Shown here in pieces: positions 33,369 to 63,240 of a stretch of DNA of 64,000 nucleotides. The stretch lies in the NCBI RefSeq assembly GCF_030269305.1, contig NZ_BSTC01000011.1:124001-188000 (forward strand), given 5' to 3'. Position 1 is the stretch's first letter, and each line of letters opens with the position of its first letter. Origin of the DNA: Kineosporia sp. NBRC 101731. GTDB lineage: Bacteria > Actinomycetota > Actinomycetes > Actinomycetales > Kineosporiaceae. The translations under genes were made by a program, and so were the position numbers. The notes below the pieces were generated by a model. The model did no database searches, had not been told where the DNA came from, and worked only from the letters and a program-made list of their open reading frames with translations.

Positions 33369-33472
33369 ACCGGTACTGCCCAGTCTTTGAGATCTTCCCC
33401 GTAAATCGTGCTCTCGTATTGACCGGTACTAACCGCAGCGCTAACTTCAATGTCACGCAGTGATCGCACTGC
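33369..33472. promoter_or_regulatory. GntR/Xis divergent control region
   Basis: ACCGGTACT occurs at 33369-33377 and 33422-33430, 53 bp apart. The first overlaps the upstream edge of the repressor start. A palindrome, GCAGTG-ATCG-CACTGC, lies at 33457-33472 before the Xis-like gene. Likely operators of the GntR protein controlling both directions. Confidence 0.55.
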
Positions 33473-33509
33473 ATGCACTGCAAGTGACGACACGAAGGGA
33501 CGGCCGAAC

Positions 33510-47123: not shown

Positions 47124-47412
47124 CCCCGCTGGCCTCTGGCCTGCCCCCGGTCGCGACGATGCCCGGAAGCTCGAGGACGAGCCCGACACTGGTGTCTTGA
47201 GCGACCCGATGAAGGCGGCCTCGTGGTGGACCGTGGAAATCCCGGACGGCGCATCCAAGGTGCATGTCACGCTGAAGTTCGGTTGGGGAGATGGCGACCT
47301 CAGTTTTCTGGCCTCGGCGAGCCATGCGACTCGCCTAGGCGAGAAGCTCATCGCCGCAGGGAAGGCTCTTGAACAACGCGTGGAAGAAGCGATGCAGGAC
47401 CGGGAGAACTGA
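47116..47412 (+). CDS. hypothetical protein
   Basis: 98 aa. DPMKAASWWTVEIPDGASKV, LASASHATRLGEKLIAAGKA. Mixed fold, no known motif. Confidence 0.5.
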   Translation: MTDPAGLWPAPGRDDARKLEDEPDTGVLSDPMKAASWWTVEIPDGASKVHVTLKFGWGDGDLSFLASASHATRLGEKLIAAGKALEQRVEEAMQDREN

Positions 47413-47413
47413 C

Positions 47414-47713
47414 ATGGATCTCCGCTGCCCCCGCTGTGGTGCCGCCGTCGAAGCCGAGATCGTCGACACCACCAGCTACGCCGTCGAGATCACCTGCACC
47501 AGCAAGAGGGCGTGCGGAGCCGAATGGGATGCAGACGGGTTCGAGAAGCAGCCCGAACCCGAACCGGAGCCGTGCGAACACGAGTGGCTGTCGCTGGGCC
47601 CGGAAAGCAAGTATCTACGGTGCGTCCACTGCGGAACCGTCAACCAGGACCGGGGCGACGGCACACCCGTGCACGTGTTCCGGCCCGGGCAAGGGTGGTT
47701 CGAGCGCACGTAG
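47414..47713 (+). CDS. double zinc-ribbon protein
   Basis: 99 aa. LRCPRCGAAVEAE...CTSKRACGAEW and, at the end, HEWLSLGPESKYLRCVHCGT, two zinc ribbons. Located directly before the late leader of the terminase. Could bind late regulatory nucleic acid; inference only. Confidence 0.6.
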   Translation: MDLRCPRCGAAVEAEIVDTTSYAVEITCTSKRACGAEWDADGFEKQPEPEPEPCEHEWLSLGPESKYLRCVHCGTVNQDRGDGTPVHVFRPGQGWFERT

Positions 47714-47757
47714 GATGATTCCGGGGTTGGGGCCGATTCGTCGTCCCCGGAGCTCGC
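47711..47757 (+). promoter_or_regulatory. late-gene leader, copy A
   Basis: TAGGAT (47711) is a -10-like box. Exactly 12 nt after its first base begins GGGGTTGGGGCCG (47723). TCCGGGG (47720-47726) pairs perfectly with CCCCGGA (47745-47751), and the ribosome site GGAG (47749-47752) is partly inside this stem, 5 nt before ATG 47758. Same layout at 49381 and 59998. Confidence 0.7.
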
Positions 47758-49365
47758 ATGCCCTACAACGCCGACGCGTTCATGGCCGGCTTCGAACGGG
47801 GCATGCGCGGGAAGGACTGGCGGCAGCGGCCGTATCCGGGCCCGCTCGACCTCCTGATGAACCTCGACAAGACGTACGTCGAGACGCCCGGCCTGCGGCT
47901 GTTGTCTGATGAGCTGGTCGCTGCAACAGTCGAGCGTGAGACCACGATCAACCCCGCCTACTTGGCGATCTCCATGGGGCCCCAGGAAGGCAAAAGCTCG
48001 CTTGTAGCAAGGGCTTACCCGCTGTGGTTGCTGATGCGGGACCCGGACCTGCGGCTCATGGTCATCTCCTACGACGATCAGTCGTCCGTGCGGTGGGGCC
48101 GGTCCATGAAGCAGGCGCTGTCCGCACACTCCGGGGCGCACCCGCTGAACGGCATGAACGTCAACCTGTCCCTGCGTCACGGGTCCGAGGCCGTCAACAA
48201 CCTTGAGATCGACGGGTACAAGGGCGGCCTCGTGTGCGTCTCTCTCAAGGGGGGTATCACCGGCAAGCCCGCCGACGTGATCATCCTCGACGACGTCGTG
48301 AAGGACCGACAGACGGCCCGATCGAAAGCGTTCAAAGAGCTCTGGAAAGACCAGTGGCAGACCGCGATCACGTCGCGACTGTCCGCCGAGTCCCTCGTCG
48401 TCATGGACCACACCCGCTGGACCGAGGACGACCCGATCGGCCAGCAACTCACCGAGAACGGCGACCGGTGGCGGTACGTCAACGTGCCCGCGATCGTCGA
48501 GTCCCGGCCCGTCGGGCCCGGCGAGACACCGGTCCCCGTCAGCGACCCTCTCGGTCGGCAGGAAGGCGAATGGCTGATCTCTGCCCGTGGCCGGACCCCG
48601 GAGCAGTGGCGCCGCAAACGAGCCGACGTCGGCGAGGCAGACTTCTGGGCGCTCTACCAAGGGTCGCCGTACCCGGCGTCCGGTGGCCTGTTCAAGAAGA
48701 ACACGTTCCGGTTCTGGAAGGCGACCGGCGACCCGTGGCACATCGAGATGCCCGGCCGGTCCGCGCCGGAAGTCGACCTCGGCAACTGCATGCGGTTCAT
48801 GACCGTTGACCTCGCCGCGAGCTTGCGCACGTCCGCTGACTGGACCGTCGCTGCCGTGTGGGCGATCGCGATGTCCGGCGAGCTCCTCATGCTCGACCTA
48901 CGCCGCGAGCAGGTCGACCCGACCGACCACTGGGACAAGGTCGTCGCGCCGCTCTACTCGTACTGGCAGTGCCCGATCTACGTCGAAGCGACCCAGCACG
49001 GGTACGACCTCGTGTACACGGCCGCCCGCGAAGGCGCCCTCATCGAGAAGCTCGAAGCGGACACCGACAAGTTCACGCGTGCCGTCCCCGCGAGCCGCCG
49101 CATGGGCCAGGGACAGATCCTGTTCCCGCCCGCCGCACACTGGTTCGCCGACTTCCAACAGGAAGTTCTCGGCTTCCCGACCGCCTCACACGACGACCAG
49201 GTCGACGTCCTCGCCTACGCCCACCGCGTGCGCGGCGCGATCTGGGTCCCACAGCCGGACGCCACGCAGTCGCAAGCCATACGGGAAGCCGCCCTCCCAC
49301 CGACCGCGGCCCCGGATCCGGCGTTCGGTTGGCCGGCCGCCGACATCGGGTCTGCGCCGCTGTGA
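47758..49365 (+). CDS. terL: terminase large subunit
   Basis: 535 aa. ATPase part: P-loop-like MGPQEGKSSLVAR near 73-84 and Walker B ADVIILDDVV near 175-184, then VMDHTRWTEDDPIG. Nuclease part: MTVDLAASLRTSADWTVAAV near 345 and HDDQVDVLAYAHR near 475, acidic residues of an RNase H fold. It translocates and cuts DNA into the procapsid. Started by the shared leader; portal and capsid genes do not follow, tail-like genes do. Confidence 0.92.
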   Translation: MPYNADAFMAGFERGMRGKDWRQRPYPGPLDLLMNLDKTYVETPGLRLLSDELVAATVERETTINPAYLAISMGPQEGKSSLVARAYPLWLLMRDPDLRLMVISYDDQSSVRWGRSMKQALSAHSGAHPLNGMNVNLSLRHGSEAVNNLEIDGYKGGLVCVSLKGGITGKPADVIILDDVVKDRQTARSKAFKELWKDQWQTAITSRLSAESLVVMDHTRWTEDDPIGQQLTENGDRWRYVNVPAIVESRPVGPGETPVPVSDPLGRQEGEWLISARGRTPEQWRRKRADVGEADFWALYQGSPYPASGGLFKKNTFRFWKATGDPWHIEMPGRSAPEVDLGNCMRFMTVDLAASLRTSADWTVAAVWAIAMSGELLMLDLRREQVDPTDHWDKVVAPLYSYWQCPIYVEATQHGYDLVYTAAREGALIEKLEADTDKFTRAVPASRRMGQGQILFPPAAHWFADFQQEVLGFPTASHDDQVDVLAYAHRVRGAIWVPQPDATQSQAIREAALPPTAAPDPAFGWPAADIGSAPL

Positions 49366-49380
49366 CCCGGCGTCATCCTC

Positions 49381-49425
49381 TAAGCTGTAGGCGGGGTTGG
49401 GGTCGACTGGTACCCGGAGTCACCC
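49381..49425 (+). promoter_or_regulatory. late-gene leader, copy B
   Basis: TAAGCT (49381), 12 nt to GGGGTTGGGGTCG (49393), then ACCCGGAG. Here the stem is shorter: GGGT (49394-49397) with ACCC (49412-49415). The changed bases are still paired. GGAG (49416-49419) is 6 nt before a TTG start. Confidence 0.65.
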
Positions 49426-50259
49426 TTGGCACGAAATGTGTTCTCCCCGACGGACGACTCTTACGTCCGTGACTTCCTCGGCCGCCCCGTCGCCGGTGTC
49501 CCCGTCAAGGTGTTCACCGCCCGGACAGGCGGCACCCAGATCACCGACCTCGTCGCGGTCGACGACGCAGGGAACCTCGGCGCCGCGATCCCCAGCGGGA
49601 TCCTCGTCAGCGACCGTGACGGCCTCATCCCCGCGTTCGCCGGCCCCGATGGTGGCCCGGTCGCTGTGTGGGTCAACACCGGCCAGGGAGGCGTCCGCAA
49701 CCTGTTGCGCGCCGACTCGACCGGAGGCGGTGGGGGAGGCGGCACCCAGTTCACCAGCGTCCTCGGTAAGAGCTCAGGGACCGTGACCGGCGCCGACATC
49801 GTCGCCGATACCACCGTTAGTGGCACGTATGCCCAGAGGTGGCAGCCCGCAACGGCCTACACGGCGAACCAGATCGTGCAGCTCCCGGACGGAAGCTACG
49901 GCTCGGCGAAGGCCAACCACACGTCGCCCGGCTCGTTCGCCGCATCGGCCTGGAACAGCATCAACCTCGCCGCCGGGTCGGATGCCTGGCTGAAGCAGCA
50001 CGGCTCGAACATCGACGGGCTGATCGTCGGCGCGATCACCCGTGACAGCAACAACGCTGCGACCGGCGCCGGCATCGTGTGGCCCGACGGCACGACCGGC
50101 ACGTACGCGGCGACCACGGTGTCGAGCGCGTTCGTGGGCGCTGTGGACGCCTACACGGTGACGTACGCCGGGGCCGTTACCAAGACCGTGACCCAGCCCG
50201 CGGTCGCCCGCAACGCCAACGGGGCCGTCACCAACCGGCCCGCGATGACGGTGAGCTGA
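49426..50259 (+). CDS. tail fibre protein with shared N-terminal module
   Basis: 277 aa, TTG start. Residues 1-85 (FLGRPVAGVPVKVFTARTGG, TQITDLVAVD, PSGILVSDRDGLIPAFAGPD) are paralogous to the start of the gene at 63240. Gly-rich hinge (GGGGGG), then a WQPATAYTANQIVQLPDG carbohydrate-binding-like stretch and a beta-rich end. The shared module is probably the particle anchor. 2 nt from the next gene. Confidence 0.65.
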   Translation: MARNVFSPTDDSYVRDFLGRPVAGVPVKVFTARTGGTQITDLVAVDDAGNLGAAIPSGILVSDRDGLIPAFAGPDGGPVAVWVNTGQGGVRNLLRADSTGGGGGGGTQFTSVLGKSSGTVTGADIVADTTVSGTYAQRWQPATAYTANQIVQLPDGSYGSAKANHTSPGSFAASAWNSINLAAGSDAWLKQHGSNIDGLIVGAITRDSNNAATGAGIVWPDGTTGTYAATTVSSAFVGAVDAYTVTYAGAVTKTVTQPAVARNANGAVTNRPAMTVS

Positions 50260-50261
50260 CC

Positions 50262-51401
50262 ATGGGAATCCTTGACGCGCCGGGCGTGACCCGGACAGAC
50301 CTGGCCAGCTACACCCCGACGACGAAGGCCGGAGTATCGAGCCTGGAGACCCAGCGCGCTGGGGCCTTGCGCCCGTTCCATGCGGCCCTGGGGGGCCGGA
50401 ACTCCGGCAGGGTCGACTGGCTCGCCATCGGTGACTCGATCTCCGAGGGGGCATCGGCCGGGGCATCGTCGGCCCGGTACCTGACCCGCACCTGGAACAG
50501 CCTGCGGACAGCGTTCCCCGCGACCGGCGTAGTCGGCGGCGAGGGTTTCGTCCCGGCCCGAAAGGGCAATGCTGCCGCGGGGAACAACGCCGTGGAGACG
50601 TGGTCGGTCACGGCCGGTACGGTCACGAACGATGACTCCATCGGCTGGGGCGGCCGGTCCGTTTCCTTCGGGACCGGCGTCACGCTGAGCCGCACGGTCG
50701 TCGGCACGTCCCTCGACCTGTGGTTCACCGGCAACCCATCCTCCGGGACCGTCGCAGTCTCGGTCGATGGGGGCGCCGCCACCACGATCGTGACAGCCAT
50801 AACGCCCGTGCAGGAGCGAACTCCATCACGGGTCAGCCTCGGTGCGGCCGGGACCCACACGGTGACGATCTCGCACTCCGCGGGCGGCACCGTCTACTTC
50901 GGTGGATCCACGGGCTACAACGGAGACGAGTCCGCGGGCCTGGTTCTCACCGAAGCGGCCCACTGGGGCTGGAACACAACTACTTACAGCGCAGCCATCG
51001 GCTACTTCGGGCAGCGAGTGGCTCGGCTTCAGCCGTCCCTGGTGACCATCGCGCTGCTGACCAACGACGTGATCGCCAACCAGCCGAGCGTCTACAAGAC
51101 CAACCTCTCGACGCTGATCTCGACGATCCGCACCAACTGCACGATCAGCCCGAGCATCGTGCTCACGTCGATGTTCGAGCGCACGGACACCGCGCCTCTG
51201 TCCCCGTGGGCGAATTACCTTGCCGCGCTGGGGGAACTCGAGGCGTCGGACCCGCTGATCTCGTGGTTCGACTGGGGCGTCCGGATGGGCCCGGCGACCC
51301 CGAACACGTACGGCCTGATCAGCGCCGACAACGTCCACCCGACCGCGAAGGGGCACGGGATGATGGCTGATTCCCTGACCCGCTTCCTGATGCCCCGGTG
51401 A
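50262..51401 (+). CDS. SGNH-hydrolase-type tail protein
   Basis: 379 aa. Starts MGILDAP, like two later genes. WLAIGDSISEG is block I (catalytic Ser), a beta-sandwich insert follows (residues about 135-235), LLTNDV is the N-block, and ADNVHPTAKGH is block V (Asp/His). SGNH enzymes deacetylate or de-esterify sugars; as a tail protein it would trim host surface polysaccharide. Confidence 0.8.
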   Translation: MGILDAPGVTRTDLASYTPTTKAGVSSLETQRAGALRPFHAALGGRNSGRVDWLAIGDSISEGASAGASSARYLTRTWNSLRTAFPATGVVGGEGFVPARKGNAAAGNNAVETWSVTAGTVTNDDSIGWGGRSVSFGTGVTLSRTVVGTSLDLWFTGNPSSGTVAVSVDGGAATTIVTAITPVQERTPSRVSLGAAGTHTVTISHSAGGTVYFGGSTGYNGDESAGLVLTEAAHWGWNTTTYSAAIGYFGQRVARLQPSLVTIALLTNDVIANQPSVYKTNLSTLISTIRTNCTISPSIVLTSMFERTDTAPLSPWANYLAALGELEASDPLISWFDWGVRMGPATPNTYGLISADNVHPTAKGHGMMADSLTRFLMPR

Positions 51402-51411
51402 CGGTGATCTG

Positions 51412-52653
51412 ATGGGACTCCTCGATCCTCCCGCGCTGAGCCCGACTGCGGCAGCGAACCAGTACCCGCTGTCCAAGCTCGGCGTATTCGTGCCGGTCGG
51501 CTGGGGCCAGCACTGGCGCACCGCACGGGCAGCCGGGGCCGCGGGCACCAAGCTCGCCAAGGTCGCTGTCTACGGCGACTCGATCGGACACGTCTTCCCC
51601 AGCAATTTGGAAGACAAGACGTACCCCGGCCGGATTCAGACCGCGCTGCAAGCCAAGTATGGCGACGGCGGCGGCGGGTTCTTCAGTGCCGGCTACACGC
51701 AAGGCCAGTTGAGCTTCAGCAACGCCGCATGGCTGGCCGATGCCGACAAGCTCGCCACGATCACAGGGACCTGGTCGGCTGGCCCCGCGTCCGGACCCGG
51801 CCAGCGCATGATTCAGAGCTCGGCCGACGGGTCGACCTGGACCAAGCGGGTACGGGGAACAACCGTCGGCGTGTGGGTGGCCGTCGTGACCTCCGGTGCG
51901 GCGGGCGTCTTCTCGGCGACAGTCGACGGTGGCGCTGCCATCCCCATCACCTCCCTTGCTGCCTACGACGGTTTCAACAAGGTCACCCTCGCCACTGGCC
52001 TGACGAACACGTGGCACACCATCGTCGTTACCAAGACGGGCACCACAAACGCCTACCTCAACGGGGCCTGGGGCGAGAACAGCACTGGTGTCATCGTCGA
52101 GAACTACTCCGCGTACGGTGCGCTGAGCACCAACGTGGGTGGCGGAAACTTCGGCAATGTCAACGATCTCGGTCGCCCGGTCCCGCTCTCGGGCGGCAAG
52201 TACAACTCCAGCGACCTGTTCATCTACGCGATGTGCGCCAACGACGCCAACGGCGGAGCAACGACGCCCGACGCCTACGTACAGAACGTCGAAACAGCCC
52301 TGCGGTACGTGCGGATCAGTCAGCCAGCGAACAACCCAAGCTGGAACATCGACCGCAACGGCAAGACCGACATCATCCTTTTCCAGCCATTCGCAGGAAA
52401 CTTCGACAGCCAACTCCCTCGTCTGGCACCTCAGTACACGCAGCGCATGTTCGGCTTGGCCCACCAGTACGGCGCTGCGATAGTGACGGCGGCCCCGCTC
52501 TGGCAGAACTCATGGTCGGTCGCCCAAGCCGCTGGCGTGTGGTCGACCGTCCTCGGCTCTACCCCGGGTGGCTCCGGGACTGACTCCGTCCACATCTCTG
52601 ATATCGGAGCGCAGGCGTACGCCGACCAGCTGCTCCAGGTCATCGACTCCTGA
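51412..52653 (+). CDS. SGNH-hydrolase-type tail protein
   Basis: 413 aa. MGLLDPP start. VAVYGDSIGHVFP is block I; beta-sandwich insert (residues about 125-225); YAMCANDANGG carries the Asn block; DSVHISDIGAQAYADQLL gives the Asp/His block. Same architecture as the previous gene but only weakly alike in sequence, so an older duplication or separate acquisition. Confidence 0.8.
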   Translation: MGLLDPPALSPTAAANQYPLSKLGVFVPVGWGQHWRTARAAGAAGTKLAKVAVYGDSIGHVFPSNLEDKTYPGRIQTALQAKYGDGGGGFFSAGYTQGQLSFSNAAWLADADKLATITGTWSAGPASGPGQRMIQSSADGSTWTKRVRGTTVGVWVAVVTSGAAGVFSATVDGGAAIPITSLAAYDGFNKVTLATGLTNTWHTIVVTKTGTTNAYLNGAWGENSTGVIVENYSAYGALSTNVGGGNFGNVNDLGRPVPLSGGKYNSSDLFIYAMCANDANGGATTPDAYVQNVETALRYVRISQPANNPSWNIDRNGKTDIILFQPFAGNFDSQLPRLAPQYTQRMFGLAHQYGAAIVTAAPLWQNSWSVAQAAGVWSTVLGSTPGGSGTDSVHISDIGAQAYADQLLQVIDS

Positions 52654-52664
52654 GGAGAACCACC

Positions 52665-52880
52665 ATGGCTAAGACGACGCCGCAGGAAGATGATGCCCGG
52701 CGGATGGCGGTGCTCGGCTGGACGGCGCACCTCACCGCACTGCCGCTCGCTCCCGCCGTGGACGACCCGGCCGGGTACGTGCGTGGCCTGCTCCCGCCGG
52801 ATGCCCCGTCGTGGCTGGTCGAGGGCGTCACCGACGGTGTGCGCATGTACCTGCCCGCCGTCGCCCCGGACGGCTCCTGA
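52665..52880 (+). CDS. small hypothetical protein between spike genes
   Basis: 71 aa, GAGGAGA site. ARRMAVLGWTAHLTALPLAP, WLVEGVTDGVRMYLPAVAP. Could be a tail assembly chaperone or spike-associated subunit; no signature. Confidence 0.5.
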   Translation: MAKTTPQEDDARRMAVLGWTAHLTALPLAPAVDDPAGYVRGLLPPDAPSWLVEGVTDGVRMYLPAVAPDGS

Positions 52881-52883
52881 CCC

Positions 52884-54656
52884 ATGGGAGTCCTTGAGCC
52901 GCCGTCGATGCCGCTGGTCACGACCGGCATCGCGGCATGGGCGCCCGGCGTCAGCCTCGAGCAGGGACAGGTGCTGCGCGGCCCTGACGGGGACCTCATC
53001 CGCCGCACGGCCGCAGGCGGAGCGGCAGCAGGGTTCTGGGGCAGCGCCGAGCAGGTCAAGTACGCGCGCATCCAGCGCGGCAGCTTCACGGTGAACGTGA
53101 AACACCACGGCGCCGCAGGTGACGGCTCGACGGACGACAGTGCGGCGTTCGCTCGGGCCATGGGTGCCCTGCTGGGGACCGTCAACGTGTCGGCGTTCCC
53201 GACCAGTGGCAGCCAGGTCAGCAAGTTCTGCCTGGAGATCCCGCCGGGCGAGTACTTGATCACGCAGCCAGGCGCGCTTCTGAACGCCGCCAGCGGGGCC
53301 CGGTTCACCGGCCTGGCGATTCGTGGTGCGGGTCAGGACGTCACCAGGATTCGCTTCGCCCCCACCGACCCAGGTCCTACCGGTTCCGCGTACCTCGCCG
53401 TGAACAACGACAAGGCATCCATCCTCCAGATCGAGGGCATCACCTTCTCATGCTCAGTCGCTAACGCTTCGTTCATGCAGTCAATCTCGAACGGCATCAG
53501 CAACTACTCGTTCCGCGATTGCCGGTGGGAAGGTTCCTGGCGTTGGGGTTTCAGGCTCACGGGCACCAACACGAACAGCGAGTTCACGTGGTCGAAGTGC
53601 ATGGTCTCTGGATCGTGGACGTCCTTCCTGTCCATTCCGTCCGAGGCCGAGGGCGGGAATGATCAGTTCCTGAACTATGACTTCTTCACGTGCTCTGTGT
53701 TCCTGACTGCCGGTGACTTCGTCGACCTGCAAATGGGCGGGAACGTCAACATCTGGGGTGGCTCCTACACCTTTGGCGGCGACGGAAGTACCGTGCAGCG
53801 CCTGCTGTCCCTGCGCGGCAACGTCCACGGCTCCGGCGTCTGTCGTGCTCTGGTCGCCGGCGCCCGACTCGAGATCAAACATGCTCTCTCGCAGGCCGTG
53901 TACAGCGAATGGAACGGCGGATCGATCCTCTTCACCAGCGTCGACATGGCGGCCCTCGCACCCTACGTGCCTGCTTCGACAGTGACGGCCGAGTTCCGTC
54001 ACTCCGCCGGCCCAGGGCCGAACATCGCGTGGCAGTCCTGCAGCCTCATGGGGCAGCACAAGTACGCGGTCAGTAACTCCGGTGGCGCCTATCCACGGGT
54101 CGCCACCTACAGAAACTGCGACATGTACCAGCACGCCCACGGCGCCGACATGATCGTCTACGACGAGGCCGGCACCATCACCTCCCGTGGCGCCTACCCG
54201 CAGATCACCTTCGACGGATGCCGGACCATGCAGCCGAACGGCAACCAGTACGCCGTCGACTGCACACTCAACTGGGACGCGGCGAGCAACGCGACCAGCG
54301 GACGCGAACGGATCCTGCAGCTTTCCGACTCCTACGGCCCGCCTACCGCCGGCGGATCCTGGACGGTTCAGCTTCCGCTGGGCGCCGTCATCAGCAAGGT
54401 CGTGTTCGACCGGCCATCCAGCGGAGGCGGCTACGCAGGCACGTCGTGGTCTTACGTGATTACAGACGGCGCATCGACGAGCGTCGCCACCTACTCGCCA
54501 GGATCACCGTGGAACGCGGGTTTCCACTCCGAGATTGCCGCCTGGCGGAAGCTCGACACCAGCGCGAAGCGCACCCTGACCCTCACGGCGACCGGGATCA
54601 CCGCCAACGAACCCACCGCCAACCTCGCCAGGGTGCTCGTCTACTACATCACCTGA
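52884..54656 (+). CDS. beta-helix tail spike (pectate-lyase-3 fold)
   Basis: 590 aa. MGVLEPP start. Residues about 70-155 carry the Pectate_lyase_3 opening: VNVKHHGAAGDGSTDDSAAF, LEIPPGEYLITQPGALLNAA, IRGAGQDVTRIRF. Repeating short strands continue to about 470, then a beta-sandwich end. Such trimeric spikes bind or cut capsular or cell-wall sugars. The converging minus gene overlaps its last 153 nt. Confidence 0.8.
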   Translation: MGVLEPPSMPLVTTGIAAWAPGVSLEQGQVLRGPDGDLIRRTAAGGAAAGFWGSAEQVKYARIQRGSFTVNVKHHGAAGDGSTDDSAAFARAMGALLGTVNVSAFPTSGSQVSKFCLEIPPGEYLITQPGALLNAASGARFTGLAIRGAGQDVTRIRFAPTDPGPTGSAYLAVNNDKASILQIEGITFSCSVANASFMQSISNGISNYSFRDCRWEGSWRWGFRLTGTNTNSEFTWSKCMVSGSWTSFLSIPSEAEGGNDQFLNYDFFTCSVFLTAGDFVDLQMGGNVNIWGGSYTFGGDGSTVQRLLSLRGNVHGSGVCRALVAGARLEIKHALSQAVYSEWNGGSILFTSVDMAALAPYVPASTVTAEFRHSAGPGPNIAWQSCSLMGQHKYAVSNSGGAYPRVATYRNCDMYQHAHGADMIVYDEAGTITSRGAYPQITFDGCRTMQPNGNQYAVDCTLNWDAASNATSGRERILQLSDSYGPPTAGGSWTVQLPLGAVISKVVFDRPSSGGGYAGTSWSYVITDGASTSVATYSPGSPWNAGFHSEIAAWRKLDTSAKRTLTLTATGITANEPTANLARVLVYYIT

Positions 54657-55871
54657 ACCACCCCCAGTGGCCACGAGCTGATAAGCGGCGATCAGGGCGA
54701 CGGGCACATAGAGATACCTGTCCGTGAGCTGGTTTTCAATGATGCCGACTCCGAGCCAGATGATTGTGCTGCTCAAGAGGACGGATATGTGAGGCCTCTC
54801 GGGTCCGCGAAGGCGCCAAGCGACGCGCAACATGCCGCCGAAGTAGGCGGCGCACCCAAGCCCCAGGATGATTCCGCCCGAGGAAAGCATCTGTAGATAG
54901 ATGCTGTGCGATGAGGTGATGTAGTCGATTCCTATTCCGTCAATCGGCCTCGTTTGAATATCGAGAATGGCCTGGTCCCGGTATTCGAGTCTCCCGACGT
55001 CGCTCGCCTCTCCGGCTGCGCCGAAACGCATCAGGGGAAGCCAGAGAGCCTTGATCGGCGGCAGATCCATGACGATGACGATCAGGACGAGTAGCGACGA
55101 GAGGCGCAGGAGGGTTCGGCGATCGCGGGCGGCCAGCAGCACGGACAGCAGGATCGCGACGACGTAACCAACCTGCGAGCCCCTTGAGCCCGAGGCCACA
55201 ACACCGATGCCGAGGGCCGCCAGCAGGAAGGAACCTGCAAAGCGCGATCTGCCCAGCAGGTAGAGGGCAACCGGCGTAGCTAAGGCACATCCGACGCCCA
55301 TGTTGTTAGCGTGTGACTGTAGGCCATTCTGGCGGCCTGACGTGTTTACGAACTCGACGAAGTTCACGCCAATCTGAGTTACCCCGAGCATGTCCGAACC
55401 TGCGATAAGCGCGGAGATTGCAGCCCCCAGCGCCCAGGCCCACATGAGGTACCCGAGGTATCGCTCACGTCGGCGCCCGAGGAATATCACCAGCATGGGG
55501 AGCATGAAGAAGGCAGCCAGCCACTGGAGGCCGGTGATGACTTGCGTGGCGTTCGCCTGTGGAGGGCCACCGCGCGAGAAGATGTAGCTGGGGTCTGTGG
55601 GAAGCCAGACATGAGTGGACATGCTGGTGATGACCGCGACGGTACCGACCCATACCCATCGAGGAACGCTAAGAGGCGTCCGCGTGCTGATGGTTTCGAT
55701 ACCAAGCATGAGAGCGGCTAGCGTCAGGAACACGTCGCAGAGCATCAGGGGGCCGGCCCGCAGGCCTCCCCACGTGCTGGTGAGAGCAAAGGCCAGCATT
55801 GGCAGCATGGCGAAATCGGTGAGGGTGCGTCCTGGATTATTGGGCCCTGCGAGTCGATGGGTGGTAGTCAC
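54504..55871 (-). CDS. O-antigen ligase/polymerase-like (Wzy/WaaL type) membrane protein
   Basis: 455 aa in the open frame; the family-like part ends near residue 401 (LYVPVALIAAYQLVATGG) and the last ~50 residues are antisense to the spike gene, so the natural C-terminus may have been replaced. GTG start overlaps the small upstream gene (GTGA). About ten membrane helices and the large loop with RLEYRDQAILDIQTRPIDGI, ITSSHSIYLQMLSSGG typical of Wzy_C. Lower GC than neighbours. Confidence 0.75.
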   Translation of the reverse strand: MTTTHRLAGPNNPGRTLTDFAMLPMLAFALTSTWGGLRAGPLMLCDVFLTLAALMLGIETISTRTPLSVPRWVWVGTVAVITSMSTHVWLPTDPSYIFSRGGPPQANATQVITGLQWLAAFFMLPMLVIFLGRRRERYLGYLMWAWALGAAISALIAGSDMLGVTQIGVNFVEFVNTSGRQNGLQSHANNMGVGCALATPVALYLLGRSRFAGSFLLAALGIGVVASGSRGSQVGYVVAILLSVLLAARDRRTLLRLSSLLVLIVIVMDLPPIKALWLPLMRFGAAGEASDVGRLEYRDQAILDIQTRPIDGIGIDYITSSHSIYLQMLSSGGIILGLGCAAYFGGMLRVAWRLRGPERPHISVLLSSTIIWLGVGIIENQLTDRYLYVPVALIAAYQLVATGGGSGDVVDEHPGEVGGGFVGGDPGRREGQGALRAGVELPPGGNLGVETRVPR

Positions 55872-56077
55872 CGGGAACCTCGCCTAGACCGAATCGCAGT
55901 GATGACCGTGCCGGTCTCGCGGGCAAGGAAGGCGAACGCCGAGATGGCGATGCCGGTGCGCTCGTAGATGCCGATGGCGTGACCCGCGCGGCCCGGCTCG
56001 AGGAGCTGCTGTAGCAGCCACCCTGCGACGAGCCCCACGATCATGACCTTGACCCAGGTGTCCATGTGTACGTCCAT
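55868..56077 (-). CDS. small membrane protein coupled to the polymerase-like gene
   Basis: 69 aa. One clear helix (VMIVGLVAGWLLQQLL) and a second weaker one (GIAISAFAFLARE), Arg-rich end. Translationally coupled to the O-antigen-polymerase-like gene. By analogy to phage D3-like conversion it could modulate a host polymerase, but a holin is equally possible. Confidence 0.5.
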   Translation of the reverse strand: MDVHMDTWVKVMIVGLVAGWLLQQLLEPGRAGHAIGIYERTGIAISAFAFLARETGTVITAIRSRRGSR

Positions 56078-56249
56078 CGGTACCCCCTCGCAGCGGCCCC
56101 CTTGACCGCAACCACCCAGTTTCCCCGGGCCGGTAAACCCCCGGGTCCTACTTGCCAGTTGTGGGGTGTTTGGCCGACGGTCTGCATGGCCGGGCGTCTG
56201 AGGTCGAGATGCAGGGCGGGCTATTGCAAGGACGAGCTGGCAACTCCCT

Positions 56250-57371
56250 TTATGAGTTGATGTGCCCGTGGCCCACAGGGTGAACTTCAGGAACCGTCCG
56301 CGAGTGAAAGACCCTGGCTACTAGACGATTGAATTGGCGCTGGCCAACTACTTCGACCAGGTAGGCCGCCAGCAGAAGCACGGGGAGACATAGTCCGAGT
56401 AGGACCCACCACTTTCCCGAGGCGACCCCCCAGCGCACCAGGATTGGGTAGTGGAGCACGTAGATTGCATAGGAAATCGGAGCGATCGGCGCGAAAGGAC
56501 CTATGGTAACTCGGAAACCAATCCACCCAAGTTTGCTCCAGGCCACGGTCATGACGGCAAAGACTGTTCCTGTGGCGAAATGCCGAAACGTCAGCACCGG
56601 GTACAGACCGAATCCACGAGGTCCTTCCAGCACGATCGGAATGGCCGCCGCAATGGACATGGCGGTAAGGCAGGCAAGTGGCTTCCCACATCGACGCCAT
56701 GTCAGCGCGCCGTCCTCTACCCACACGCGGGCCAATTCGAGTCCGGCCCACCAGATCACCGCGTAGCTGGCGACAAGGAGGATGTGGTTAGGATGCGCGA
56801 GGTAGGCAAGCCAGGCCAACAGCGAAACCAAGGTCACGGCGGGCAGCTGATGCTGCCGGGGGACCCATCGGTATGTGGGCCAGAAGAGCAGGTAGAACCA
56901 CCACTCGTATGACAAGGACCAGAGGGGCAGGTCGCCGAGGAACGTACCGATCCAAGTACCCGGCTTCGTCGACCCATCGTCTTGAAGCATGGCCAGGTTG
57001 CCCAACAGCTGACCGAAGCTGAACTGGTCTACCAAGGCACCTGTTGCAGCAGCGACAATCGCGCTTACGATCAGTGCAGTCGCAAAAGGAAAATAGATTC
57101 GGCGGAATCGATGCTCGAAGTAGGTTCCGAAGCTCTGCCCCGGTCGGTTCTGGGTGGCTAGATAGATCACGGCGCCGGACATCAGGAAGAAAATGATGAC
57201 CGCCTCCTGGCCAAACCGGAAGGGCAGCCCCACAAGCGCCGGTGGATTCAGCGCGAGTACCACGTGCGTAGCCGCGACGTAGACCGCAGCCATGCCACGT
57301 AACGCGTTCAATCCAGGAATATCGATCTTCGCGAAAGGTCTGGACGTGCGAGCGGCGGGCGCATCAAACAT
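56250..57371 (-). CDS. acyltransferase-3 family membrane protein
   Basis: 373 aa from the minus ATG at 57371 (the TTG at 57422 is an alternative). GLNALRGMAAVYVAATHVVL has the family RGxAAxxVxxxH; about ten membrane helices; FRRIYFPFATALI and SLSYEWWFYLLFW are family marks. It likely O-acylates a surface sugar. Lower GC than flanks and opposite strand to the spike genes, suggesting moron origin. Confidence 0.88.
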   Translation of the reverse strand: MFDAPAARTSRPFAKIDIPGLNALRGMAAVYVAATHVVLALNPPALVGLPFRFGQEAVIIFFLMSGAVIYLATQNRPGQSFGTYFEHRFRRIYFPFATALIVSAIVAAATGALVDQFSFGQLLGNLAMLQDDGSTKPGTWIGTFLGDLPLWSLSYEWWFYLLFWPTYRWVPRQHQLPAVTLVSLLAWLAYLAHPNHILLVASYAVIWWAGLELARVWVEDGALTWRRCGKPLACLTAMSIAAAIPIVLEGPRGFGLYPVLTFRHFATGTVFAVMTVAWSKLGWIGFRVTIGPFAPIAPISYAIYVLHYPILVRWGVASGKWWVLLGLCLPVLLLAAYLVEVVGQRQFNRLVARVFHSRTVPEVHPVGHGHINS

Positions 57372-57488
57372 GGGTGGAAGTGTGTCTGACAGGGGCGCTG
57401 GGACGTAGCCCAATGCGCGCAACGTCGGGTGATCGTCCGATGCGCCAGGACTCCTATTGGTCGCCCACCAATGGCGAGCTGGCCTCCG

Positions 57489-57665
57489 TCAGATGACGAC
57501 ATTCACCACCTCGGGGTCTCGGGCGCACATCGCACACCACCGCTCACCCGCCCGCACCGCCTCGGTCGTCAGATCGGCGTGGCAATTTCTGCATCGCCAC
57601 TTCACTGTCCGCACGTAGATCCAGTGGCGGGTGAGGAACACTCGAAGAGGGTGGCGAATCTTCAC
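57489..57665 (-). CDS. small zinc-ribbon protein
   Basis: 58 aa from the minus GTG at 57665. WRCRNCHADL and WCAMCARDP give two CxxC pairs. Unknown; different strand and context from the phage zinc ribbons. Confidence 0.5.
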   Translation of the reverse strand: MKIRHPLRVFLTRHWIYVRTVKWRCRNCHADLTTEAVRAGERWCAMCARDPEVVNVVI

Positions 57666-57920
57666 AGGCGCAGCTTCGCTGAACCCCGCGAACCACCGGG
57701 TGCTACCGGTTGGTTGTGGTCCGTTTAGCCGATCCGGACATGGTCCCGATCTGTCGACACCACGGCATGACGGACGATCAGATCGCAGCAGGCCTCCAGT
57801 GGTGGCGTGAACAGCCAGACGATCGGCGGCTATCACTGTCCAGCCCCAACCCCATGGACGGCGCGACCGACCTGACGGATGAGGAAAAGGGGGAACCGAT
57901 CGGGCATGTTCGTGCGGCCA

Positions 57921-58885
57921 TCATTCATTGAGGGTTTTCCAACCTCCTCAGGAGTTAAGGATCAAGACCTGAACCGCGTTCACCAGGCGCGTTGCGTGAG
58001 CCGGGCTGGAGCGGATCTTCTGAAGGATCCGCCAGTTCTTGAGCTCGGCGTTGGCTCGCTCGCCCGGAGCGCGCATCTGTGAGATCGACGTGTTGACGGC
58101 CTTTTGGCCAGTCGAAAGCTCACGACGAACGAACAGACGCGAGCCCGGGTCACGACGCACGCGGCGGAACGGCGCCCGGATCGTGGCCCCGGCACCGATG
58201 TAGGCCGTGTCGGCAAACGTCGTCACGCCGGCCTCGGCCAAGGCTGCAGGGATCGCGTGCTGCCGGGCGGCACCGGCATCGTGGCGGGCGCCGGGCAGGG
58301 CCGGTGACGCCCAGATCAGCCGGCCTGCTGGATCGGCGATGACCTGCACGTTCACCCCATGGGCCTTGTGCTTGCCCGAGTAATAGGCGCGATCGCCCTT
58401 CGACGCCATCGCCACCCGGTCGATCCGCAGCAGCGTGCCGTCCAAGCTCACGTAGGCCTTCTTCAACGCCGTCTCGATCGCCTGTTCCAAGGTCGGGGCG
58501 AGAGCAGCCAGAACCTCCATTCCCTCGCGCAGATAACGGTAGGCCGTGGTCGTGCCGACCCCGAACCCGACCGCCAGGTCATGGTAGGTCTCGCCCTTCC
58601 TCACATGAGCCAGGACCATCAAAGCCTGCTGGCCAGAGGACAACACGCGCCACCGACTCCCGATCCGCTGCCTGTGAGTGCGCAGCGCGTTCGTAATGAA
58701 CCGCAAGCCCTGGGTGGACACGTTCATCCCCGAACGATAGACAAGCACACGGAACTCCTGGTGATGGATCTTGATCTCGACAATCGCGATCCCACCAGGG
58801 GTTTCTTCATGTTCCCGCCACCGCCACGTGCACCCTTACCGCCTCCGTGACCCCTGTGGCTCAGGAGGATGGAAAGGGCTCATTG
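57921..58885 (-). mobile_element. IS5-like insertion sequence
   Basis: About 965 bp with one minus-strand transposase. Ends carry an imperfect inverted repeat: CATTGAGGGTTTTCC... (57926-57951) against the complement of 58860-58885, 20 of 26 positions alike. GGCCA flanks both sides, a likely 5-bp target duplication; the left end has five extra bases before the repeat, so the exact edge is uncertain. Confidence 0.7.
57948..58748 (-). CDS. IS5-family transposase (DDE_Tnp_4 type)
   Basis: 266 aa, GTG start (ATG 58727 possible). HTH: SSGQQALMVLAHVRKGETYH, DLAVGFGVGTTTAYRYLREG. DDE core: AYVSLDGTLLRIDRV (first Asp), GVTTFADTAYIGAG (second Asp), GERANAELKNWRIL (Glu). Intact, so the insertion may be recent and active. 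Confidence 0.88.
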   Translation of the reverse strand: MLVYRSGMNVSTQGLRFITNALRTHRQRIGSRWRVLSSGQQALMVLAHVRKGETYHDLAVGFGVGTTTAYRYLREGMEVLAALAPTLEQAIETALKKAYVSLDGTLLRIDRVAMASKGDRAYYSGKHKAHGVNVQVIADPAGRLIWASPALPGARHDAGAARQHAIPAALAEAGVTTFADTAYIGAGATIRAPFRRVRRDPGSRLFVRRELSTGQKAVNTSISQMRAPGERANAELKNWRILQKIRSSPAHATRLVNAVQVLILNS

Positions 58886-59115
58886 GGCCACTCGGTGGCT
58901 GAACCTGACCGCCGAGCAGAAGACTTCACAGATCAACGCGGACAGCCTCCAGGCCTTCGTTGATGGCCCTCTAGAGCGCGCCTGCATCCGCTGGGCCGCC
59001 GAGGACAGCGAGCCGGGTTCACGGTGGAGGCCCTGACTCGAACCTAACAGCGACGAGGCCCATAGATCTGGTGCACAGCGTTCAGCCGGCCAGCGAACGG
59101 TCCGAACCATCGAGC

Positions 59116-59325
59116 ATGGATAGCGACACTAAACCCACGAACTGCGACGTGGCGGAGACCGCTGCTCAACTCTCGGCCTCAACCCATGAAAAGCTGCTCT
59201 GGCCGGCTCGCGTACAGATGGCCCTTAGCATCATGCATAACACGTCCGAGTGCACGAGGGCCTTGAGCAGCCGGTGTGCCATGTGCCCCTGGCGCGAGAG
59301 CAACCTTGCCGCACCCATCGACTGA
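59116..59325 (+). CDS. small protein with CxxC-W motif
   Basis: 69 aa from ATG 59116. STHEKLLWPARVQMALSIMH and SSRCAMCPWRES. No clear ribosome site; a remnant is possible. The stretch 59326-59535 that follows shows no further gene, only a GGGGGTTCCCCCC inverted repeat near 59493. Confidence 0.4.
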   Translation: MDSDTKPTNCDVAETAAQLSASTHEKLLWPARVQMALSIMHNTSECTRALSSRCAMCPWRESNLAAPID

Positions 59326-59535
59326 CCCGGGCATAGCTGCGAGGGTGCCCTGGCGCCCCGCTGGGACGCGTGTCCCGTACCGTGCCGCGGGGGCAGATGA
59401 TGCGGGCTGGTGGGTGTGACCGAGGTGTTGGGCCCGCCGCACGTACATCGTTTAGCTGAGACAGCTACTCACGCGTTCGGCCTTGCCTGCGGGGGTTCCC
59501 CCCTGTGGTGACGGCGCGGCGCCTATCGTCCAGAT

Positions 59536-59835
59536 ATGGGTGACGTACTGGACTTTGTGGAGCTGACTCGGGGCTGCCCGCCGTTCGCTATCTCGCTTCC
59601 TGCCTCCGGCCCTCCCTTGCTCGCGGTGGGGACAGAGTCGGGCCTGCGCGAGATGCCCATCAGCGACCCAATCCGGCAACTCCTGGACTCCCTGGACGAC
59701 GTAACCACCGTCAGGGACGCCATGAGCCAGCTGGGCGTCCTCGTGGCCGCAGAGCTGCGGGCCACGCAGGTTGCCGGACGCCGGGCCCGGCTGGGCCCAG
59801 CCAATGCGAGTCTGCCGCTGTCTAACGTCAGCTGA
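59536..59835 (+). CDS. hypothetical protein
   Basis: 99 aa. FVELTRGCPPFAISLPASGP, REMPISDPIRQLLDSLDDVT, then a helical half. Not recognised. Followed by two hairpins before the next late leader. Confidence 0.5.
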   Translation: MGDVLDFVELTRGCPPFAISLPASGPPLLAVGTESGLREMPISDPIRQLLDSLDDVTTVRDAMSQLGVLVAAELRATQVAGRRARLGPANASLPLSNVS

Positions 59836-59840
59836 CCCCG

Positions 59841-59878
59841 GGTGGCCCCGGCCGTATCCCTCCATCGGCCGGGCCACC
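59841..59878 (+). terminator. hairpin terminator
   Basis: GGTGGCCCCGGCCG / CGGCCGGGCCACC, 13 bp with one bulged C and an 11-nt loop, 5 nt after the stop at 59835. Confidence 0.65.
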
Positions 59879-59933
59879 AACCGAATGGACTTCGGCCCGG
59901 TCGAGAGCCATCCTGGGTGAGCCTTGCGAGCAG

Positions 59934-59957
59934 AGCCCCGGCCTGATGGTCGGGGCT
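59934..59957 (+). terminator. second hairpin terminator
   Basis: AGCCCCG / CGGGGCT with a 10-nt loop and TTC following; just before the leader of the large fibre gene. Confidence 0.6.
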
Positions 59958-59997
59958 TTCGCATGTCCGGGGAGCGGACCAGCAGCCCCGCATACGC

Positions 59998-60042
59998 GAT
60001 ACTGGGACCGGGGTTGGGGCCGGTGGTCCCCGGAGCGCACGC
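59998..60042 (+). promoter_or_regulatory. late-gene leader, copy C
   Basis: GATACT (59998), 12 nt to GGGGTTGGGGCCG (60010), then CCGGGG (60008-60013) paired with CCCCGG (60028-60033). GGAG (60032-60035) overlaps the stem, 7 nt before GTG 60043. Matches copies A and B in order and spacing. Confidence 0.7.
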
Positions 60043-63000
60043 GTGCCCTACACCCCGTACTACCCGACGTGGCGGGACCTCCCCAACCAGACCACACCCC
60101 TGATCGCCGCGGCCCTGAACCACATGGACGCCGGGATCGCGGCAGCCATGACCGCCGCCGAATCCGGCACGGGTGGAGCAGGCGGCGGATACACCGTCGT
60201 CCCCGGGCTCGCCCTGAACGGGACCGCCGCGACCCCGACCGATGACGCCCTGGCGATCCAGGCCGCGCTCGAGCTCGTCGAGGACGGCGAGACCGGCGGG
60301 CACCTGTACGTGACAGGCCCGGCCGGCGCGACAGGGTTCCTCGACTCGACGATCACGATCTCGGCGTCCGGGACGACCCTCGAGTTCGACCCGGCCATCC
60401 AGTGGCTTCACGGCCCGAACTACCGCCTGCGCCCGTGGGGTGTCATCCCGGAGACCCCGACGGCGAACCCGGCGAAGCCCGCTCTGGTGCAGGACGCCGA
60501 CGCGGGAGACACCGTCCTGTACGTCGACCAGATTCCCTCCGACTGGGTCGCGGGCATCTACGTCGGTATCCGGGGGAAGCGGACCGCGTCAGGGTCGGTC
60601 CCGGACTCTGAGATCCACCACAGCTACGTGACGGCGATCAACACGACCGCGAAGACAATCACTCTCGCGGACCCGCTCCCGAAGGAATACTTGGTCACCT
60701 GGGACACCACGTGGAGCAACAAAAAGTCTCAGGTCACGAAGGTCATTCAGGCGCGCCTCACCGGGACCCCAGAGATCGGCGACACCGTCCTCGAGATCGA
60801 GGACACCAGCATCTTCGCGAAGAACGATTGCCTGCAGATCCTCGACGACGTCCACACTCTCGACGACGACGGCACCCCTAGGACAGGGAACTTCGCGCAC
60901 AAGGAAACGAACGTCATCGTCGAAATCGTCGACGGGACAACACTGAAGCTCGCCGCACCCCTGCAGCACAACTATGTGCCGGGGGAGGCGGGGCGCGTGC
61001 AGAAACTCGACGTCCTGCGCGATGTCCAGGTCCGCGGTCTGCGCCTGAAAGCGAAAGCGCAGATGGTCGACGGATCTCACGCAATCGAGGTCAGGTACGC
61101 CCTCAACACGCACATCATCGACACGCACATCGAGGGCACCGGCGAGGGCGGCGTGTCCTGGTCGGGCCACGCGATCCGGCTCACCGACAGCCTGTTCTGC
61201 TCGGCGCAGCGGGGCCGGATCGCGAACCCTTCCCTGGTCGTGGCCGGCCGCGGGTATGGCGTCAGTTTCTACGGGTCGACGTCGTGCTGGGTGCAGGACT
61301 TCGCGATCTCTGGCTGCCGACACTCTGTGCTCTGGTTCAACGGGTCTGCCGTGTGTGAGGCCCGCGGTGTCATCTCGACCGACGCGCGGATCAGTGACTT
61401 CGACTGGCACGGCGCCGACGAGCAGCGCAACCGGACCATCGGGTGCACAGCCCGCGGCGGAACCCGGCGCACCGAAGACAGCTCGAACCGGTCGGCGTGG
61501 AAGTGGGGCAACCCATCCCAGCGTCCCGGGCCGCGCGCGAACCAGGCCATCGACTGCCTCGTCGAGAACTACCACGGCACTGCGGTCGACATGCTTCCCG
61601 ATGGCGCCGACAACCTGTGGCAGGGCATTGTCCGCGGCGCCCGCGTCGGTATCAAGGTCGCGCCGAACCCGCAGAACAACACGATCACGCAGGCCGGTTT
61701 CACCGTCCGCGATTCAGAGTTCTACGACGTCATCGCGCCCCTGGAACTTCAGGGCGGCCCGAACACCGTCATCTCCGACTTCACCCTCGACACCGTGCGG
61801 TTCGAGCGGTGCGGGCCCCTTCAACTCGTCAACGTGACCCGCCCACGCCTGACCCGGGTAACCGTCCGGGAGCCTGCCGACAGCGGCTGGCAGATCATGG
61901 CGTGGGGGTGCGCGGGCATCCAGATCCACGACTGTGACCTGTCCGGCGCCGGGAAAGGCATAGCGCTCACCGGGTCCCCGGACGCCCGCGTCACCGGGAA
62001 CATCCTCCACGACCTGACCGGCGCGGTCTGGCACGACGGCGGCGGGAACACCGGCGCCCTGTTCCGCTCCAACGAGATCCACCCCGGGACCGGCACATAC
62101 ACGCGGACCGGCACAGCCAGCACGAGCATCACGCAGCAGGCCATGACCGACGGCGGCACCGAGAGCATCGGCACGGCACGGACCGGGACCACGTACGTCG
62201 ACCCCGAGGACAGTATCGGCAGCGACGGTTCCACGCCCCCCGGCACCGGCGGTGGTGGCACCCCGGGAACACCGGGCGTCATGCCGTTGATCGGCCGGTC
62301 CGGGAAGGCGTGGAACTCGGGCGTTGCCCGCTGGGACTCTGGGACACCGAACTCCAACATCGCCCTCGCGAACGAATTCGGGAACTGGCGCGGCCGGCCC
62401 GTGGACGGGTTCCTGCACTTCCCGCCCCGGCAGACGTGGGCGGACATTCACGCGATCCCATCCGGGTGGGCGGCCTGGCCCGGGTACATCATCAATTCGC
62501 TTCCCCCTCAGCCCGAGACGGAAGGCGGCGGATCGAACGCGGCGACCGCGGCCGGGACCAACAACGCCCGCTGGACCGCGTACGGGACAGCCCTGGATGC
62601 GGCCGGCCTGAACACGAACCGGTACGTGATCCGGTGCGGGTGGGAATGCAACGGGTACTGGTTCAAATGGAGCTGGGGTGATGAGTCCGGCGCGCAGACC
62701 CCGCAGAACAGCGTCGCGTCGTACCAGCAGGCCATCCAGAACGTGTCCACGTCCACGAAGTCCACGGCCCCGAACATCCTCATCGACGTGTGCCTCAACC
62801 GCGGCAGCAAGCGGGCCGGGGTCACGTGGCAGCAGGTCATGGACCCGATGCTCCCGTACATCGACATCATCAGCCTTGACCACTACGACTGGTACCCCGG
62901 GCAGACCAGCTTGTCGCTGTGGAACTCCGCGCGGGGCCAGCAGCCAGGTTTCGCGGACCTGCGGACCTATCTCGCGGCGAACGGGAAGAAGCTCGGCGTC

Positions 63001-63240
63001 CCCGAGTGGGCGCTCATCAACGCTTCTGGCGGCGCCGCGGGCAACGGCGGCGGTGACAACCCGTATTTCATCGAGAAGATGCACGACGAGTTCGCGCAGC
63101 TCGCCGCGGACGGCCTCCTCGCCTATGAGGGCTACTACGAGGAAGCCGGCGGTCCGCCGACCTTGCAGCACCGCATGATGACGGGCCAGTACCCGGCCGC
63201 GGCCGGCGCGTACCAGTCCGCGGGTCGGTGGGGTTCCTGA
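60043..63240 (+). CDS. large tail spike: beta-helix fused to GH-A (GH26-like) glycoside hydrolase
   Basis: 1065 aa, GTG. Residues about 50-120 resemble a pectate-lyase-type opening (DDALAIQAALELVEDGETGG). A right-handed beta-helix region runs to about 700 (IHDCDLSGAGKGIALTGSPD). After a GTGGGGTPGTPG hinge, residues about 750-1060 are a TIM-barrel hydrolase: YVIRCGWECNGYWFKW (acid/base Glu) and GVPEWALIN (nucleophile Glu). It should bind and cut a host polysaccharide, mannan-like for GH26 relatives. Confidence 0.8.
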   Translation: MPYTPYYPTWRDLPNQTTPLIAAALNHMDAGIAAAMTAAESGTGGAGGGYTVVPGLALNGTAATPTDDALAIQAALELVEDGETGGHLYVTGPAGATGFLDSTITISASGTTLEFDPAIQWLHGPNYRLRPWGVIPETPTANPAKPALVQDADAGDTVLYVDQIPSDWVAGIYVGIRGKRTASGSVPDSEIHHSYVTAINTTAKTITLADPLPKEYLVTWDTTWSNKKSQVTKVIQARLTGTPEIGDTVLEIEDTSIFAKNDCLQILDDVHTLDDDGTPRTGNFAHKETNVIVEIVDGTTLKLAAPLQHNYVPGEAGRVQKLDVLRDVQVRGLRLKAKAQMVDGSHAIEVRYALNTHIIDTHIEGTGEGGVSWSGHAIRLTDSLFCSAQRGRIANPSLVVAGRGYGVSFYGSTSCWVQDFAISGCRHSVLWFNGSAVCEARGVISTDARISDFDWHGADEQRNRTIGCTARGGTRRTEDSSNRSAWKWGNPSQRPGPRANQAIDCLVENYHGTAVDMLPDGADNLWQGIVRGARVGIKVAPNPQNNTITQAGFTVRDSEFYDVIAPLELQGGPNTVISDFTLDTVRFERCGPLQLVNVTRPRLTRVTVREPADSGWQIMAWGCAGIQIHDCDLSGAGKGIALTGSPDARVTGNILHDLTGAVWHDGGGNTGALFRSNEIHPGTGTYTRTGTASTSITQQAMTDGGTESIGTARTGTTYVDPEDSIGSDGSTPPGTGGGGTPGTPGVMPLIGRSGKAWNSGVARWDSGTPNSNIALANEFGNWRGRPVDGFLHFPPRQTWADIHAIPSGWAAWPGYIINSLPPQPETEGGGSNAATAAGTNNARWTAYGTALDAAGLNTNRYVIRCGWECNGYWFKWSWGDESGAQTPQNSVASYQQAIQNVSTSTKSTAPNILIDVCLNRGSKRAGVTWQQVMDPMLPYIDIISLDHYDWYPGQTSLSLWNSARGQQPGFADLRTYLAANGKKLGVPEWALINASGGAAGNGGGDNPYFIEKMHDEFAQLAADGLLAYEGYYEEAGGPPTLQHRMMTGQYPAAAGAYQSAGRWGS

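Follow-up and report, generated by a model that had tools for sequence, protein, structure and literature searches.

The window analysed here, a 64,000-nucleotide stretch of the Kineosporia sp. NBRC 101731 genome, contains three late phage genes that open with a shared leader, and the question it raises is whether that leader acts as a promoter, as a structured RNA, or as both. A preliminary description had read it as a late promoter with a translation-control hairpin. The three copies lie where that description placed them. Each begins with a hexamer (TAGGAT at 47711, TAAGCT at 49381 and GATACT at 59998), six bases 3' of which stands GGGGTTGGGG(C/T)CG (at 47723, 49393 and 60010), with (C)CCCGGAG next; the GGAG is followed after 5, 6 and 7 bases by the start codons ATG (47758), TTG (49426) and GTG (60043), respectively. 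The exact 13-mer GGGGTTGGGGNCG occurs three times in the window against 0.06 expected, a count reached by none of 100 shuffles. With up to two mismatches the excess is weak (30 versus 19.0, and 2 of 100 shuffles reach 30). The full pattern including the CCCGGAG arm was found three times in the 8.26-Mb genome, all within the window, and the control gave none.

All three copies are on the forward strand. In copy A, the -10 hexamer (47711-47716) precedes the conserved start block GGGGTTGGG (47723-47731, predicted +1 to +9) and a predicted hairpin (47729-47748; GGGG...CCCC, inner CGA/UCG) that abuts the GGAG ribosome site (47749-47752). The gene, with its ATG at +36, encodes the terminase large subunit (47758-49365; PHROG 38, E 3.1e-74; Pfam Terminase_6N and 6C). 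Copy B has its hexamer at 49381-49386, the same block by alignment at 49393-49401, a possible weak hairpin GGGT...ACCC at 49400-49415, GGAG at 49416-49419 and a tail/fibre-like gene starting with TTG at +34 (49426-50259; weak matches to PHROG 27064, of unknown function, and 11373, tail). In copy C, the hexamer (59998-60003) and the aligned block (60010-60018) are followed by a predicted hairpin GGGGCC/GGUCCC (60016-60030), GGAG (60032-60035) and a tail-spike-like gene with a GTG at +34 (60043-63240; PHROG 7458, E 7.7e-13). The arms CCGGGG/CCCCGG that had been proposed for A and C need to be shifted: the outer arm CCGGGG starts at -2, so it would not lie wholly in a transcript from the first G, and the second G-run, from +7 onward, is the likelier 5' arm. 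The compensatory GGGT/ACCC pairing suggested for copy B is not part of the lowest-energy predicted fold, which pairs other partners, and this makes B the weakest of the three.

The window holds part of a prophage in which terminase, portal, head protease, scaffold, capsid, major tail and tape-measure genes follow in order. Copies beyond the window end were found by reading onward, with coordinates kept on the window scale: at the portal gene (69530), inside the head-protease gene (73551), at a small gene (78482), at the major tail protein gene (80337) and at a 44-codon ORF just 5' of a lysis-like gene (88687). At least eight copies are present in this Kineosporia-group prophage. A weight matrix from seven sites scored six of these at 30.7 or higher, with the next best in 104 kb at 11.8; since the six are training sites, the scores show consistency only. 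The protease-internal copy scored just 9.3.

A prophage of the type strain Kineosporia babensis JCM 31032 (terminase 63%) has nine counted copies, eight of them at homologous genes; a match at 44037 (GGGGTTCGGCCCGCC), for which no gene start was found, was set aside uncounted. The two prophages also share a large FtsK/SpoIIIE-like gene (window 39129-41348, + strand; 79% identical in K. babensis), and a GntR/UTRA-type regulator (32563-33483, - strand) faces a small HTH gene (33450-33713, + strand), with K. babensis counterparts at 71% and 67%; this pair is a possible lysogeny switch. Eight uncultivated phage records also carry the leader, giving ten phage records in all. One of them, a 51-kb record (m3; terminase 64%), has six copies. 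Three are present in L215, a fragment whose portal protein is 50% identical; one of them (L215-K) is without a verified gene. Among 94 loci whose products include a relative of the tail, terminase or portal protein, these two records alone were positive, which indicates that the leader marks one phage group and not all relatives. A capsid protein search gave 12 loci, one being the 51-kb record itself. Among the 11 others, which were scanned, six (L264-L269, capsid 56-58% identical) have the protease-internal copy. Five of these six have the portal copy, a contig end cutting off the portal start in the sixth, and three have the tail-protein copy, two others being contigs shorter than 10 kb. That scan applied two criteria together and gave no copy passing both in L229 and L271-L274. 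Homologous leaders therefore stand before the same genes in relatives, namely terminase, spike, portal, the protease-internal start and the major tail protein.

The pattern TANNNT-N6-GGGGTTGNG matched six times in 18 genomes, five times in this prophage and once in the K. babensis prophage (reversed control, three). A relaxed motif gave 11 matches on the plus and 2 on the minus strand in this region, 8 and 1 in K. babensis, and 5 and 1 in the 51-kb record. From a separate search, a pair of minus-strand matches with one mismatch in this region, and the K. babensis matches at 44661 (+) and 27049 (-), were set aside as non-leaders. For the phages Soos, Sonali, WinkNick and KaiHaiDragon, the parts examined contained zero or one match to the relaxed motif per record, and 21 intergenic gaps of Soos, among the nearest cultured phages, show other promoters by eye. 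TANNNT-N6-GGGGTTGGG matched in 11 of 394 genomes sampled from the class, more than once only in this genome; that pattern is too strict and would miss most copies of distant relatives, so the scan sets no limit on the range. Three matches of the strict pattern in IMG/VR were all judged chance on reading, as were, by eye, those outside this prophage among the five matching genomes of 148 relatives. A looser pattern gave 101 stretches, and none of the 111 loci followed up, including those from other scans, was leader-like. De novo word counting was dominated by coding-bias words and gave no motif, and Rfam had no match at the gathering score in 124,000 bases from four sources.

Alignment of 39 leaders gave a common anatomy: a -10 box, a pyrimidine at -1, GGGGTYGRG from +1, and then the hairpin. 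Position -11 is A in 28 and -7 is T in 31 of the 39, -1 is C or T in 38, and +1 is G in 35. Positions +3, +4, +5, +7 and +9 are invariant (G, G, T, G and G) and +6 is T in 25 and C in 14, an invariance partly built in by anchoring the alignment on GGGGTYGRG. No search selected on the base at -1, whereas some of the leaders came from searches that required a loose -10. A pyrimidine at -1 with a purine at +1 fits a normal bacterial transcription start. For 15 leaders of the two prophages that came from searches not using the -10, a [TCG]A...T box lies 6-7 bases upstream in 12 (8 of 11 without four eye-picked ones); such a box is seen at 4% of random positions and ahead of 6-7% of other G-runs. 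Among the nine K. babensis copies, three (C', G' and H') are without a -10 at this distance, and no -35 was seen in 26 leaders. Eight short leaders (A, B, C, D, F, A', B' and F') have their start codon at +32 to +36; in relatives it is found as far as +52, and in the major tail protein leader at +86 here and +83 in K. babensis. Perfect stems of at least 8 occur upstream of 2 of 22 copies versus 5% of 400 controls, and no terminator claim is made on these counts. By eye, terminator-like stems stand before C, F, C' and F'.

Evidence for the hairpin comes from the matching of its arms. In an arm-swap test, the 5' arms (+7 to +13) were paired with the 3' parts (+14 to +36) of other leaders. Thirteen leaders of the two prophages, picked neither by eye nor by fold (E, E', I' and H, picked by eye, were excluded), had a mean fold of -11.5 versus -9.7, and 4 of 50,000 permutations were as good. 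A second set comprised ten leaders of the newest phages, at the portal or the protease-internal site, for which motif, -10 and gene start were the sole selection criteria; its values were -11.6 versus -7.3, with 0 of 50,000. The two sets combined also gave 0 of 50,000. Larger sets included selected leaders: 17 leaders, some selected, gave 0 of 20,000 (68 for this prophage alone and 2 for K. babensis alone), and 26 leaders, some fold-selected, gave 0 of 50,000, whereas controls taken from the flanks gave 13% and 99%. The 39 leaders gave 0 of 50,000, and by position 0 for protease-internal, 122 for portal and 75 for tail-protein leaders; this test and the tail-protein one are partly selected because the L264, L267 and L269 tail-protein copies had surfaced by a fold below -9. 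Among the earlier additions, m3-D, m3-E and L215-E came from a scan requiring a fold of -6 or lower, L215-D was first noticed when reading upstream of the portal gene, and the other m3 copies and L215-K were eye-picked from lists requiring a loose -10. The L268 copy, a near-duplicate of that in L266, was excluded from swap tests.

Most short leaders are predicted to form one short stem, which begins at +6 to +9, a range to which the search was limited and which is thus not independent. Compared with their own dinucleotide shuffles, short leaders had z above -1.5 in 10 of 11 cases and above 0 in 7 of 11, so support for the hairpin rests on arm matching and not on stability. The hairpin is weak in copy B, m3-F and L267-E (-4.0), and automatic alignments misplaced the 3' arms. 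A generic search for a hairpin plus ribosome site in the 94 relatives' loci gave 27 matches on the plus and 21 on the minus strand, so this layout alone is uninformative. Strong hairpins of differing sequences were also seen just 5' of ribosome sites, a short way after the terminase match, in other uncultivated phages (L164 at 5960, L196 at 1480 and L209 at 2239). The arm matching is strong evidence, at the level of sequence comparison, that the hairpin is kept by pairing while its letters change across distant phages.

The copy inside the head-protease gene (73551-74220, window scale) comprises a leader and, in frame with the protease, a start codon from which a scaffold-like product of 211 codons would be read. 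Of all the positions, this one shows the element most clearly. Its stem is GAGGCC/GGCCUC here, GGGACAUCC/GGAUcGUCCC in K. babensis, GGGAUGCA/UGCAUCCC in the 51-kb record and GGGAUCCG/CGGAUCCC in L215 and others, in each case with the ribosome site within a few bases and then the in-frame start. In all ten records the element lies within the open frame, which extends 317-503 codons upstream and 170-211 downstream, and similarity to the protease was found on both flanks in the seven records tested (L215 and L264-L269). Across the ten records the encoded amino acids vary and the GGGG block falls in two different reading phases, which points to selection on nucleic acid and not on protein; from these comparisons, selection at this copy most likely acts on the RNA. 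In phage lambda, the scaffold Nu3 is made from an in-frame start within the head protease gene C. The arrangement here resembles C/Nu3 in having such a start and a scaffold-like product, and differs in that a promoter-like box and a leader hairpin come with the internal start.

The major tail protein leader (80337-80425, window scale) is longer and predicted to be multi-branched, also in K. babensis and the 51-kb record. In each of the three phages for which it was folded, its fold is better than that of its shuffles (z -2.1, -3.2 and -3.3). Besides extra stems it has a predicted closing helix, GGGGUUG/CAACCCU in this prophage and GAGGUUG/CAACCUC in K. babensis, in which the tag pairs with CAACC bases a little way ahead of the ribosome site or start. 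The automatic alignment of these three leaders was poor.

How the hairpin and the ribosome site are placed differs between copies. Of the 33 leaders not belonging to the tail-protein group, 20 have, on our reading, the site no more than about 6 bases 3' of the stem; the site is inside an arm or the loop in A', F' and I' of K. babensis and in J of the 51-kb record (m3-J), and about 70 bases away in the major tail protein leader. Across 20 leaders, the predicted exposure of the site runs from 0.02 to 0.80, so hiding of the ribosome site is not a shared property. Of the preliminary reading, the repeated promoter-leader and a covarying hairpin are thus retained, and covering of the ribosome site as a general rule is given up.

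What the copies have in common is a 5'-terminal tag followed by a stem, and for this reason we prefer a function of the 5' end of the RNA, be it in protecting the message, in presenting the ribosome site or in being recognised by a factor. The elements of this prophage and of the wider phage group are, as far as sequence comparison can tell, probably late promoters whose tag and hairpin work as 5'-end RNA, a reading we hold with moderate confidence. Typically a TANNNT-like -10 box is present and no recognisable -35, and transcription would most likely start from the first G of GGGGTYGRG. The late mRNAs would then share the 5' tag GGGGUYG and, directly after it, a hairpin whose sequence varies and whose end, in many of the copies, adjoins the ribosome site; the start codon would come 32-52 bases into the message, or 83-86 in the major tail protein leader of the two Kineosporia prophages. 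Tag and hairpin may keep the 5' end folded and the ribosome site presented, and a phage or host factor probably recognises them, with the outcome that late operons would be expressed strongly and together. No conserved candidate for such a factor was found among the proteins scanned. We suggest more tentatively that there may be a clade-wide recognition code for late messages, made up of the RNA tag GGGGUYG, a hairpin kept by pairing, a putative reader factor, and the protease-internal copy for the scaffold message.

The main rival is that the nascent 5' hairpin acts on RNA polymerase, modifying or pausing it for terminator read-through, an effect that the put RNA of HK022 has on early genes with no protein needed, or for loading of a late antiterminator. 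The element's place at the predicted 5' end, with its stem from +6 to +9, would suit such a role, as would its variable relation to the ribosome site and the multi-branched leader of the major tail protein. Against it, most short leaders have one short stem and not two, ribosomes would cover the element because start codons follow directly after it, and no antiterminator gene was identified. We consider this nascent-RNA explanation unlikely, while ranking it first among the alternatives to the 5'-end RNA function.

Somewhat more doubtful is an occlusion switch, in which the hairpin would hide the ribosome site until a factor or late condition releases it, or would silence read-through RNA from upstream while leaving the late transcript open; the former version has a precedent in Mu Com acting on mom mRNA. 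The four leaders with the site in an arm or loop are consistent with this, and when 40 upstream bases are added, exposure falls by over 0.2 in five of 20 leaders (A, F, B', m3-E and L215-E). The same addition raises it by that much in two and changes it by 0.2 or less in 13, and exposure computed from +1 already covers the whole range given above. A candidate factor could be a 114-aa zinc-ribbon protein encoded just before copy A (47369-47713, + strand), which weakly resembles Mu Com (Pfam Com E 0.0018, 18.1 bits, cut-off 22.9). Its best Pfam match, however, is DUF7577, a domain of unknown function, and while it has a counterpart in K. babensis (45% over 47 residues), there was no significant match in the 51-kb record.

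Less probable again is a DNA-level element, whereby an activator or a phage-specific polymerase holoenzyme reads GGGGTYGRG and the hairpin is secondary. GGGGTYGRG is indeed the most constant part, with six of nine positions above 90% in the 39 leaders (in an alignment anchored there), and the missing -35 would fit. Yet the arms vary in sequence and loop length and still match, and a DNA site read by sequence needs no such matching. Chance or G+C-rich composition, to which the common two-mismatch matches in the window and the ordinary folding of single leaders could point, is very improbable in view of the exact counts, the whole-genome and reversed-pattern controls, the arm-swap results and the positional conservation in ten records.

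The signal described here comes with a predicted start, a tag, and a hairpin with strong arm matching in ten phage records. These, with one copy lying inside a coding frame, make the promoter and RNA roles separable. In the open-access literature, subscription papers being outside the search, no description of the leader element was found. Repeated phage motifs before genes, such as SAS and the Cluster EC motif, are already in print, with roles that are proposed only in the parts of those sources available to us.

Among known systems, the put RNA of HK022 is likewise a structured RNA at the start of phage operons (PMC9378689). It is about 70 nt long with two stem-loops, and, according to the available portion of that source, it differs in having two copies, in early operons, and no link to a ribosome site (PMC9378689). 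Its two stem-loops are not matched here, given the mostly single stem of the short leaders and the multi-branched fold of the major tail protein leader. Mu Com/mom offers a phage zinc-finger protein with a hairpin near a translation start, and differs, in the section consulted, in concerning one gene and not a genome-wide series (PMC6483171); the zinc-ribbon protein of this prophage is linked to Com by no more than a weak resemblance below the cut-off. The SAS of Cluster K phages, GGGATAGGAGCCC, is described in the accessible text as part of the ribosome-site region, usually 3-7 bp ahead of the start codon, and as confined to that half of the genome which carries non-structural genes. Like SAS/ESAS, the leader is a short repeat before many start codons of one phage, with GGG...CCC ends; for SAS/ESAS, the promoter appears to lie in the linked ESAS and a role in translation has been proposed, so far as the text available goes. 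Unlike SAS as described there, the leader begins 32-52 bp upstream, is found at structural genes such as terminase, portal and tail genes, and contains a hairpin that covaries. With up to two mismatches, the SAS consensus was absent from the window (2.0 expected), as was the Cluster EC motif TAGaCTcTaGGTgTaAgC with up to three, whose sequence is unrelated. That 18-bp motif of the Microbacterium phages Quhwah and KaiHaiDragon is reported, in the excerpts seen, in 12 copies 21-30 bp before starts (PMC7302621, PMC9224216); the Cluster EC terminase is a distant relative, at about 30%. Its layout is similar to that of the leader, with a -10-like beginning (TAGACT there) and conservation that extends further, though the leader hexamer stands at least 44 bp before the start. 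In KaiHaiDragon (L262/L263), TTAGAC, apparently a -35, lies about 25 bp upstream of 9 of 12 copies, so the EC motif looks like an ordinary -35/-10 promoter, and its arm-swap result is marginal (600 of 20,000; mean fold -4.8). On what these sources give in their available parts, we found nothing described that comes nearer to the leader than SAS and the Cluster EC motif.
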